NCBI GenBank assembly: GCA_016401345.1
Contig: JAEACG010000004.1
Coordinates: 124,001 to 188,000, forward strand
From: Fictibacillus nanhaiensis
GTDB lineage: Bacteria; Bacillota; Bacilli; Bacillales; Fictibacillaceae
DNA: 64,000 bases
Reading direction: 5' to 3'
Both the position numbers and the translations under genes were made by a program. Below, piece after piece: positions 2,464 to 63,960 of the stretch. Within the stretch, counting starts at the first letter, position 1. Each line of letters opens with the position of its first letter. The notes under the pieces are model-generated. The model was not told where the DNA came from, ran no database searches, and worked only from the letters and a program-made list of their open reading frames with translations.

Positions 2464-2591
2464 GTTGATTGGAGTGGAAGGTGCGAGACTCCTGCGGGAC
2501 AAGCGGTCAGGTGAGACACTTAAAGGCGCAAAGCGGCAAGTGGCTCACCGCCTGCCCCGCGGAAAGCGAGCAACTTGGAACGGAAATCAAC
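2464..2591 (+). repeat. 128-bp structured intergenic repeat, copy A
   Basis: First of four full copies in this window (others at 37947, 49033, 63833). It opens with GTTGATTGGAG and closes with CGGAAATCAAC. Its internal arms GCGGGACAAGCGG...TGAG and CTCACCGCCTGCCCCGC pair with a short bulge. It lies between ykuU and ykuV inside a probable operon. An open frame across it encodes a low-complexity peptide that recurs in the other copies and is not a credible protein. Confidence 0.9.
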
Positions 2592-26394: not shown

Positions 26395-26482
26395 GATTAC
26401 TGATAATAAAGCTAAAAGTTTTGCTTATTATTATTTATCTCTACTAATTCTTTTTCGATCTCTTCATTGGATATAATGAACA

Positions 26483-26526
26483 TCGCCCGCCCTGCGGAAA
26501 GCATGAATCCTGAAGTGGAAATCTCT
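26483..26526 (+). repeat. relic of the 128-bp repeat (right end only)
   Basis: The segment GCCCGCCCTGCGGAAAGC followed by TGAAGTGGAAATC corresponds to the last 40 bases of the structured intergenic repeat, with the final CAAC lost. Confidence 0.6.
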
Positions 26527-37946: not shown

Positions 37947-38075
37947 GTTGATTTGAATGGAAGGTGTGTGCCTCCTGCGGGACAGGCGGGCAGGTGAGAC
38001 ACTTAAAAGTGAAACGTAAGAATGTGGCTCACCGCTTGCCCCGCGGAAAGCGAGCAACCTGGAATTGAAATCAAC
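37947..38075 (+). repeat. structured intergenic repeat, copy B
   Basis: The full 129-bp copy opens GTTGATTTGAAT and closes ATTGAAATCAAC. Relative to copy A the changes at its two ends compensate each other. It lies in the probable 3' untranslated region of the antiporter gene, in antisense orientation to that gene. Confidence 0.9.
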
Positions 38076-38111
38076 TACTTTCATAAGCAATACTGAATAC
38101 GAAACAGGCAC

Positions 38112-48976: not shown

Positions 48977-49007
48977 GACACGGAGCTATGCTTCGTGTCC
49001 TTTTTTT
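48977..49007 (+). terminator. rho-independent terminator after trxB
   Basis: GACACGGAGC pairs with GCTTCGTGTC (one mismatch) and is followed by seven T. Confidence 0.9.
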
Positions 49008-49032: not shown

Positions 49033-49161
49033 GTTGATTTCCGCTCCAGGTGTTTCGCTTTCTGCGGGGCAGGCGGTGAGCCACATTTGTTCGTTTCACT
49101 CTTAAGTGTCTCACCTGCCCGCCTGTCCCGCAGGAGTCTCACACCTTGCGCTCCAATCAAC
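49033..49161 (-). repeat. structured intergenic repeat, copy C
   Basis: The full 129-bp copy lies on the minus strand. Its 5' arm GTTGATTGGAGC and 3' arm GCGGAAATCAAC carry C and G at a position where copies A and B have T and A, a compensatory change. Confidence 0.9.
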
Positions 49162-57722: not shown

Positions 57723-57778
57723 AAATTCAACCATTTACGTTGTGAATATCTTTTGGATTTAAAGCGGTCGTACTTTTT

Positions 57779-57820
57779 GAATAAGAAGTGGAACACTTAA
57801 AATCCACTTCAGAATTATTC
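57779..57820 (+). other. csp leader hairpin
   Basis: In the roughly 190-base leader, GAATAA...AAGTGGA pairs with TCCACTT...TTATTC. Long structured leaders are typical of cold-shock genes, where they act as thermo-responsive RNA. That role here is inferred. Confidence 0.55.
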
Positions 57821-57916
57821 AGATGAGTGCGCATTTTTTTATGCCTTTTTATTTACATAGTAAGTCGGTTAAAAGAGTTAAAACGCTTACATAGCGTTTG
57901 TAAGGAGGAAACACCC

Positions 57917-58117
57917 ATGCAAAATGGTAAAGTAAAATGGTTCAACGCTGAGAAAGGTTTCGGCTTCATCGAAGTTGAAGGCGGAAACGACGTATTCGTT
58001 CACTTTTCTGCGATTCAATCAGAAGGCTTCAAGTCTCTTGAAGAAGGACAAGAAGTATCTTTCGAAATCGTTGATGGCGAGCGTGGACCGCAAGCTGCTA
58101 ACGTAACAAAACTTTAA
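57917..58117 (+). CDS. csp: cold shock protein
   Basis: A 66-residue CspA-family nucleic-acid chaperone with RNP1 KGFGFIEV and RNP2 VFVHFSAI on the beta-barrel, starting [19 protein letters not shown] lies 9 bases before the ATG at 57917. It is transcribed from a consensus promoter through a long leader, ending at a good terminator. It cannot be assigned to CspB, CspC or CspD. Confidence 0.97.
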
Positions 58118-58130
58118 TAGTAAAGTTTAA

Positions 58131-58168
58131 AATGCCAGACTGCCTTCGGGCGGTGCTGGCATTTTTTT
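58131..58168 (+). terminator. rho-independent terminator after csp
   Basis: AATGCCAG pairs with CTGGCATT, with an inner CC-TTCG-GG stem, followed by seven T. Confidence 0.92.
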
Positions 58169-59689: not shown

Positions 59690-59806
59690 GAAGTCCTTTT
59701 TGTCTGGCTAGCCAATGCCACTAGAAAGGTAAGGCACTGATACATAACGTATGGGTGTGGCTCACTGCCTACCCGTGGAATGCGGGCATCTGCAACGGAA
59801 ATCAAT
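59690..59806 (+). repeat. degenerate copy of the 128-bp repeat
   Basis: The right half is recognisable: GTGTGGCTCACTGCCTACCC followed by GTGGAATGCGGGCATCTGCAA and CGGAAATCAA. The left half is eroded. It lies between rpoN and the glutaredoxin-like gene. Confidence 0.65.
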
Positions 59807-59867
59807 TGCTTTTTAAAATCAACGATGAATACAAAACAGCCTAATAAAAAATGAAGGAGCACTAAAA

Positions 59868-62634: not shown

Positions 62635-63819
62635 ATGAACAAAAAAAGTGTTCGTGACATCGATTTAAAAGGCAAAGTCGTATTTTGCCGTGTTGATTTT
62701 AACGTACCAATGAAAGATGGAAACATTACGGATGAAACGCGTATCAACGCTGCTCTTTCAACCATCAAATACTTAACAGAGCAAGGCGCTAAAGTTCTTT
62801 TAGCAAGTCATTTAGGACGTCCAAAAGGACAAGTTGTTGAAGAGCTTCGTCTAACTCCTGTAGCAGAACGTTTAAGCGAGCTTCTTGGTAAAGAAGTTGT
62901 AAAAACGGATGAAGCTTACGGCGAGGAAGTTGAAAAGGCAGTTGCTAACCTAGAAGAAGGCGGCGTGATCTTACTTGAGAACGTTCGTTTTTATCCAGGA
63001 GAAGAGAAGAACGATCCTGAATTAGCACAAAAATTTGCTGCACACGCTGATGTGTACGTAAACGATGCATTTGGAGCAGCTCACAGAGCGCACGCTTCAA
63101 CAGAAGGGATCGCGAAACATCTTCCTGCTGTTTCCGGTTTGTTGATGGAAAAAGAACTTGAAGTATTAGGAAAAGCTCTATCGAATCCTGACCGTCCTTT
63201 CACTGCCATCATCGGTGGTGCAAAAGTTAAGGATAAGATTGACGTAATCGATAATCTATTAGACAAAGTAGACAACCTGATCATCGGCGGTGGTTTAGGG
63301 TATACATTCATTAAGGCGCTTGGCCATGATGTAGGGAAGTCTCTTTTAGAAGAAGATAAGATTGAAACAGCTCGCGGTTTCATGGAAAAAGCTAAAGAAA
63401 AAGGCGTGAACTTCCTGATTGCTGAGGATGTTTTAGTAGCTGACGATTTTTCGAACGATGCTAACACGAAAGTAGTAGCGATCGATTCTATCCCATCTGA
63501 TTGGGAAGGGCTTGATATCGGAACAAAAACGATCGAAAAGTACGTAAAGGTTATTAAAGAATCGAAGCTTGTAATATGGAACGGACCGATGGGTGTATTT
63601 GAGATCGACGCATTCGCAAACGGTACACGTTCAGTAGCAAACGCACTAGCAGAAGCAACTGACACGTACAGCGTTATCGGTGGCGGAGATTCAGCTGCAG
63701 CGGTTGAGAAGTTTGGTCTTGCTGATAAAATGAGCCACATCTCAACAGGCGGCGGCGCTTCCCTTGAGTTCATGGAAGGTAAAGAACTTCCAGGCGTAGT
63801 AGCTTTAAACGACAAGTAA
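62635..63819 (+). CDS. pgk: phosphoglycerate kinase
   Basis: A 394-residue glycolytic enzyme making ATP and 3-phosphoglycerate. N-domain substrate motifs are [20 protein letters not shown] (about residues 14-33), [10 protein letters not shown] and [16 protein letters not shown]. The C-domain nucleotide motifs are [29 protein letters not shown] and [23 protein letters not shown] lies about 12 bases before the ATG. A repeat copy follows in place of an immediate tpiA start within this window. Confidence 0.98.
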
Positions 63820-63832
63820 GATTTTGTGCGCG

Positions 63833-63960
63833 GTCGATTTCCGCTTCAGGTGCTTCGCTTTCCGCGGGGCAGGCGGTGAGCCACTTGCCGCTTTGCGCCA
63901 CTAAGTGTCTCACCTGACCGCTTGTCCCGCAGGAGTCTCGCACCTTACACTCCAATCGAC
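63833..63960 (-). repeat. structured intergenic repeat, copy D
   Basis: A full 128-bp copy on the minus strand. Its ends read GTCGATT and AATCGAC instead of GTTGATT and AATCAAC of the other copies, so both members of the third terminal pair have changed together. It begins 13 bases after the pgk stop. Confidence 0.9.

Follow-up and report, generated by a model that had tools for sequence, protein, structure and literature searches.

A probable IS1595-type MITE with a structurally constrained core, abundant in Fictibacillus and present in many related genera

The window, a 64,000-nucleotide stretch of a Fictibacillus nanhaiensis contig, contains four copies of a short intergenic repeat. Copy A (2464–2591, + strand) is a core of 128 bp in the short form, with a GGCGCAAAGCGGC tip; copy B (37947–38075, + strand) is a core of 129 bp with a AAGTGAAACGTAAG tip, followed by a right linker and a decayed right terminal inverted repeat, TACTTTCATAAGCAATACTGAATACGAAACAGGC (38076–38109, + strand), which was read against better-kept right ends elsewhere. 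The core of copy C (49033–49161, − strand) lies ~33 bp after an intrinsic-terminator-like hairpin and its T tract (48977–48999, + strand), and that of copy D (63833–63960, − strand) lies 13 bp past an ORF of 394 aa (62635–63819). All four copies were recognized by alignment, profile and fold. The earlier note on this DNA had placed copies of 128–129 bp at these four positions, and they do align from end to end; when up to 3 mismatches were allowed, a signature of 27 bases matched exactly these four places in the window, against an expectation of 0.00 from shuffled sequences. In addition, a profile built from relatives revealed two partial copies beyond those four, one covering core positions 83–125 (26481–26523, + strand, E 9e-6) and the other covering core positions 46–127 (59727–59805, + strand, E 2.5e-7). 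The latter belongs to a decayed copy, possibly of the long form, that occupies 59706–59841 (+ strand) and has the right-end remnant TACAAAACAGCC up to about 59841; the match to the extra arm beside it (59706–59724) is weak, with an E value of only 1.5. For copy A, 40 matches of 85–100% identity were scored in its own genome, copy A included. The window also holds the cspA thermoregulator RNA (RF01766, 93.7 bits), at 57759–58163.

The limits of 128–129 bp given earlier for the element delimit the conserved core and not the whole element. The alignment of oriented copies with their flanks showed that homology continues past 128 bp; the whole element has 182–226 bp, full copies start with GGCTCTTTTCTAAAAGATTGTTGCTTTT or GGCTGTTTTC and finish with GCAACAAAGTTTACGAAAACAGCC, with variation, and no transposase gene of its own is found in the full element. 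Among the 187 copies with enough flank, 66 presented an end-like match on both sides under a loose criterion. Both ends (at most 2 mismatches of 10–12 bases) together with a target duplication of at least 7/8 were found in 27 of the 187, and the duplication was perfect (8/8) in 20; when right flanks were swapped between copies in 30 trials, the corresponding means were 0.9 (maximum 4) and 0.1 (maximum 3). There are two end types, the first as above and the second GGCTCTGTTAAAG..TGTTGATTT or close to it (L055, L058 and L295), and the same core stands behind both.

One empty site was found, in a comparison that covers six loci (L325–L327, L330, L332 and L334; L328, L329, L331 and L333 were left out). 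Genome G013 has a terminator and then GGCTCTATTTCTTTTAAAGACC, and genomes G000 and G016 have GGCTCTTTTTCTTT-[element]-TTTTCTTTTAAAGACC, the element standing between two copies of TTTTCTTT within the T tract of the terminator. The terminator and the downstream sequence, without the element, are present in both G013 and G010. Genomes G014 and G006 carry a different copy, in reverse orientation, on the other side of the same terminator; at these six loci, then, one terminator was hit on both sides by separate insertions, in opposite orientations and in different genomes. An intrinsic-terminator-like hairpin with a T tract lies within 60 nt of 15 of the 27 duplication-bearing copies (two of which, L022 and L036, are the same site); of 600 AT-rich 8-mers drawn at random from intergenic DNA, 87 have one (odds ratio 7.4, p 1.8e-6).

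The ends and the duplications are of the kind found in IS1595-family insertion sequences (NF033547), which have terminal inverted repeats of the same kind and likewise duplicate 8 bp of an AT-rich target; the difference is that the present element has no transposase gene, whereas the insertion sequences examined have no core. One partner transposase (PF12762) that was checked corresponds to the IS1595 model NF033547 of NCBIfam, with 204 bits; with this protein as the query, 76 of 397 genomes had matches at E≤1e-40. A perfect 8-bp duplication was seen at 17 of the 30 IS1595 loci fetched, with ends that differ from the end strings of the MITE by 1–8 mismatches of 28, against 9–12 mismatches of 28 in 20 shuffles of one locus. 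Close relatives of the transposase (at least 57% identity) have the first end type, where ends were found; transposases at about 40–45% identity have the second. Seventeen genomes have a close relative of this transposase at nearly full length, and 13 of them carry the core, against 161 of the 380 others (Fisher p 0.01; tallied by hand from the transposase and core searches). The element is therefore probably moved in trans by a transposase of this family. No IS1595-type transposase was found in the element's own genome, and matches to PF12762 occur in just 2 of the other 17 genus genomes searched (G012 and G015), both with the second end type, so that present activity in the genus is doubtful.

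Two other relations to transposons were considered and rejected. The core is not a constant part of IS1595 transposons, as neither core nor arm was present in 41 transposase loci scanned. The ISL3 family (PF01610) was discarded as a source: 0 of 18 genus genomes carry its transposase, and none of 30 ISL3 loci fetched had matching ends, the best having 9 or more mismatches of 28. Several IS1595 elements (L266, L267, L268, L271, L272, L276, L278 and L279) differ in what they carry next to the transposase, where a variable slot, as read, often holds genes; we take these to encode a HAD-like hydrolase, an alpha/beta hydrolase-like protein, an XRE-type regulator and a 2'-5' RNA ligase-like protein.

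The earlier note had also considered a hairpin-mobilised DNA element, perhaps accompanied by a RAYT-like gene. Mobility is borne out, but the hairpin route is not, since the evidence consists of terminal inverted repeats and 8-bp duplications of IS1595 type (DDE). It is very improbable that this is a REP/REPIN-type element, which the genus's RAYT-like Y1 protein would move or bind by recognizing hairpins of single-stranded DNA. Such a protein does exist in 18 of 18 genus genomes searched; it has 186 aa and an NHTHL motif, is the sole Y1_Tnp match in G000, and its gene was located at L335:3328–3888. The element is a hairpin, and many Fictibacillus copies, read without counting, have CTAC, or GTAG when the complementary strand is read, at their right foot. 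On the other hand, no core lies within ~3.3 kb of the gene: 20 Y1_Tnp loci (the RAYT-like gene and two further matches), 139 kb in all, contain 0 cores, where roughly 6 would be expected at mean density, an estimate to be read with the loci being orthologous and not independent. Moreover, a GTAG/CGTC tag would be expected at a hairpin foot, and conservation of the GTAG-like tetranucleotide does not extend to other genera (present in L314 and absent from most, by reading), and neither the 8-bp duplications nor the DDE-type ends agree with this route. Y1_Tnp matches of some kind occur in 53 of 60 relatives.

A core pattern of 26 bases, 23 of them fixed, matched the own genome of 4.28 Mb at 158 places with up to 3 mismatches, 78 forward and 80 reverse, and the control pattern had 0 matches. 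Across 397 genomes sampled from the order, the pattern is present in 174, belonging to 55 of 135 genera, with a maximum of 301 per genome (G016), and it has no match in the other 223; the control pattern gave 0 except for two genomes with 1, so some of the low core counts may be due to chance. Eleven of twelve genus genomes have 146 to 301 core matches and the twelfth has 55. As copies were located via the core, the counts lean to well-kept cores, which the end-based search described below offsets in part; some genomes were fetched twice (L040 and L226 are one genome), and exact duplicates were removed. A search with the full element gave a match in 50 of 60 relatives. When named genomes were scanned, Fictibacillus accounted for 61 of the 80 loci among the matches listed, and the other listed loci are from Cytobacillus, Metabacillus, Heyndrickxia, Bacillus sp. 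and one Paenibacillus record. Seven plasmid records, from Priestia, Peribacillus and Bacillus badius, carry relatives; carriage by phages was rejected, as there was no match in the phage collection. Same-strand tandem cores ~224–229 bp apart occur in L306 (genome G211) and in L307 and L312 (genome G379), where the flanks are of another kind, without recognised ends.

When folded as RNA, copies A, B, C and D were better than dinucleotide shuffles, with z scores of −3.3, −5.3, −6.2 and −5.8, respectively. The opposite strands of A and D also surpassed their shuffles as RNA (z −4.8 and −5.1), and so did A and D folded as DNA (z −4.0 and −5.2). The pair changes described previously for the terminal helix are correct where they were checked in the alignment, namely T-A/C-G at pair 3, G-C/A-T at pair 11 and T-A/C-G/T-G at pair 12, and the GGA/GGA of the other copies is TGA/TGA in copy B. 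The four copies alone were insufficient for the claim of covariation made from them, and it is the larger sets of copies that display it. The first set has 62 cores, hand-picked for diversity from the fetched set: 16 from Fictibacillus (13 that had been selected for this genus, together with L047, L054 and L228), 19 from one other genus (g31) and 27 from about a dozen others. The second set, mostly of Fictibacillus cores, derives from 264 nhmmer matches; discarding duplicates and incomplete matches left 164 copies, of which 157 entered the covariation test.

RNAalifold predicted 17 pairs on the 62 cores, 13 of them with double changes. A structure of 38 pairs was drawn on the same alignment; in it 89.9% of the cells are paired and 30 of the 38 pairs present double changes, figures that favour the structure insofar as it was drawn after the alignment had been viewed. 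Double-change cells numbered 147 in this set, against 32 in the shuffled control and 12–50 in controls with the structure slid along the alignment. Double changes that fall on the same branch and keep the pair were counted as well, with a simulation in which columns evolve independently on the tree as the null. In the 62-core set 50 were observed against 3.2 simulated (maximum 7 in 100 runs), and in the 157-copy set, with 28 pairs, 55 against 3.2 (maximum 8 in 60 runs); slid controls gave 0–2. In the per-pair G-test with a tree null (GTp), a single pair reached E<0.05 in the 157-copy set and no pair did so in the 62-core set, although 13 of the 38 pairs ranked within the top 28 of 7875 in the latter. 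We consider the whole-structure tests decisive and the per-pair test underpowered, and the earlier proposal that pairing has been maintained by compensatory change is upheld. An alternative pairing of CTCCTGCGGG with CCCGCAGG was discarded, as it covaries little more than shuffles do.

Two internal loops keep conserved non-Watson-Crick oppositions, G.A in 55, A.G in 54, G.A in 53 and A.G in 53 of the 62 cores; in 35 of the 62, the second loop has a Watson-Crick pair in its middle, of several types. These loops bear on a purely selfish reading of the repeat. It would hold that the hairpin product is functionless, that cores are alike because copies convert one another, and that template switching from one arm of a near-palindrome to the other produces the covariation. 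Arm-to-arm correction of this sort is expected to erase G.A and A.G mismatches, and their persistence in 53–55 of 62 cores counts against it. The core also occurs in 55 of 135 genera, with linkers and ends that differ across about a dozen of them, which is beyond the reach of conversion.

The departures from the standard pairs are informative about the strand. In the 157-copy set G.T outnumbers A.C by 85 to 39 (p 4e-5) and in the cross-genus 62-core set by 34 to 20 (p 0.08, suggestive only), although these p-values are rough since parsimony events are not strictly independent. A role as double-stranded DNA or as a cruciform predicts equal numbers of G.T and A.C, so the excess of G.T points to the single-stranded (+) form, and a single-stranded, probably RNA, form of the core is thus suggested. 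The excess also counts against the purely selfish reading. Of the earlier claim of a structured RNA, the conserved fold stands, and action as RNA is suggested by this strand asymmetry. A DNA signal serving the host, as a protein-binding or cruciform site, is improbable. BIMEs bind gyrase or IHF, and the great abundance of the element, with 146 to 301 copies in eleven of twelve genus genomes, would suit such a role, as would the balanced orientation and the ability to fold as DNA; the asymmetry would not, because a cruciform uses both strands, nor would a range of 0 to 301 copies between genomes of one order.

A coding role had been denied in the earlier note, and the cores bear this out: the 62 cores have 118–132 nt, their lengths modulo 3 are distributed as 22, 20 and 20, and no frame is open in all of them, the best being open in 43 of 62. 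The accompanying remark that such sequences are mis-annotated as hypothetical proteins was confirmed by WP_080754389.1 and WP_205664564.1, on two plasmids of one Priestia strain.

Some copies carry an additional hairpin of ~115 nt, which we call the arm. There are 20 distinct long forms with it, 19 of 251–257 nt and one of 194 nt, in which the fold of the two ends encloses the internal arm, an architecture like that of BOX elements. In the own genome there are 35 arm matches, and all 30 loci fetched for them lie within a core. The arm is placed mostly at core positions 43–47, and at least four loci (L235, L241, L247 and L263) have it in the tip, near positions 65–75. In the first locus set, 4 of 51 arm matches lay away from a core, all from other genera, and the arm was seen apart from a core at L157:3362–3473, L187:2028–2143 and L185:3140–3377. 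As it is found apart in other genera, the arm may be a separate repeat family.

The core outlasts its ends. A left-end pattern with up to 3 mismatches has 7 matches in the own genome, all adjoining a core, against 158 for the core pattern; the end pattern has 28 fixed bases against 23 for the core, and it represents the left end of one type only. Among paralogues (46 cores, 500 random pairs) the median identity is 84% for the core, 49% and 48% for the adjoining 60-bp flanks, and 41% for shuffled sequence. At three orthologous sites (L022/L036, L118/L144 and L013/L196/L231) core identities are 0.98–1.00 and flank identities 93.0–97.5%, which again disagrees with the selfish reading. The remaining orthologous cores have identities of 0.91–0.95, or are as divergent as paralogues (0.72–0.86), or are chimaeric, so that turnover or conversion also happens. 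It is this variety that speaks for selfish spread: in the chimaeric orthologues L120/L219 the right sides are alike and the left side comes from another subfamily, and several same-orientation orthologues are no closer than paralogues. The high copy number points the same way, as do the opposite orientations at five orthologous gaps; the orthologous gap of copy C holds a long-form copy in opposite orientation in two related genomes (L149 and L214). These opposite orientations can be separate insertions, because the copy of G014 and G006 flanks the other side of its terminator. On the whole of this evidence, we hold a purely selfish MITE to be possible but rather unlikely.

The most probable explanation is a MITE of IS1595 type whose core is under structural constraint, to which we give a probability of about 0.85. 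The identity as a MITE is well supported, and the cargo is conserved, modular and BOX-like. In the proposed mechanism, terminal inverted repeats of ~28 bp (GGCTCTTTTC.../GGCTGTTTTC... or GGCTCTGTTAAA...) would be used in trans by IS1595-family transposases. Insertion takes place into AT-rich 8-bp sites, which are duplicated, and prefers the T tract of an intrinsic terminator or the sequence next to it. The cargo is the core of ~118–132 nt, predicted to form a long hairpin in which short helices alternate with internal loops of conserved G.A/A.G purine oppositions; the second hairpin of ~115 nt can be plugged in at either of two places. The core may have been retained because its single-stranded (+) form, most likely a transcript, has a job. 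We tentatively propose, at clearly less than even odds, that this job is that of a compact RNA domain in read-through transcripts near the 3′ ends of genes. Such a domain would block 3′ exonucleases or bind a protein, and would render insertions harmless or mildly useful, so that the family would be favoured.

A regulatory RNA, riboswitch-like or a protein sponge, that was spread by MITEs and serves the host in trans via its many copies would share the riboswitch-sized conserved fold, the modular arm and the strand asymmetry. The gene context does not favour it: with a simple ORF caller, sites between tandem genes have 60 copies in the same orientation as the genes and 53 in the opposite one, while other sites comprise 21 convergent and 13 divergent, and the balance at tandem genes is hard to reconcile with a role in UTRs that depends on one strand per site, a point that weighs on the main explanation as well. 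No promoter was noticed in the linkers read, more than half of the genomes sampled (223 of 397) have no core match, and Rfam has no match to the element in the window at the gathering threshold, nor to one long form up to E 10; around copy A it gave three chance-level matches, with E 1–9.6. We consider this alternative unlikely.

Many bacterial genomes are full of small folded repeats, usually dismissed as debris. Because its fold is kept across many genera despite decaying ends, the present family is a direct test of whether repeats can yield functional RNA, and its mobility is testable through the partner transposase subgroup, the terminator preference and the empty site. The family also deserves a model, as it yields annotated hypothetical proteins and has no Rfam match. 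In its broadest and most speculative form, which we find fairly unlikely as a whole, the family would be an ancient, modular, mobile RNA of ~120–255 nt carried as cargo by IS1595 MITEs with two end types in dozens of genera of Bacillus relatives; it would be deposited by terminators, its fold would be selected after the decay of the ends, and its hundreds of copies per genome would affect transcripts that read through or would titrate a protein that binds RNA.

Literature searches in one open-access library returned no paper that we recognised as describing the family, which may be in print elsewhere, and a search of papers by sequence words gave unrelated titles only among the matches listed. 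Among the closest known systems is BOX of Streptococcus pneumoniae, which is built of boxA, boxB and boxC, is intergenic and of high copy number, folds by its ends around an optional module, contains open frames annotated as hypothetical proteins and is over-represented between convergent genes (PMC3049150). As far as that description goes, BOX shares with the present element the intergenic position, the high copy number, the fold of two ends with an optional inner module, the frames called hypothetical proteins and the over-representation between convergent genes; it differs in that the element has IS1595-like ends, 8-bp duplications, an arm at either of two positions and a distribution over many genera. 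The repeats bcr1–bcr18 of the Bacillus cereus group are likewise intergenic repeats of Bacillaceae, MITE-like in the case of bcr1–3 and with conserved RNA structure in bcr10 and bcr18, and 40–51% are reported to be transcribed (PMC3446304); they are set apart by that description, which concerns one species group, whereas the core described here occurs in 55 of 135 genera. RUP, SPRITE, ERIC and Correia are also small folded repeats or MITEs of intergenic DNA, with other ends and other hosts, and a compensatory core in multiple genera is not among the features described for them in the excerpts of the two sources (PMC3049150, PMC10969869). Finally, Bhal-1 of Bacillus halodurans, described as a folded, intergenic repeat of 74 bp with 36 copies (PMC2267715), is likened to the element by that description and, being a folded intergenic repeat of Bacillaceae, may belong to the same family.
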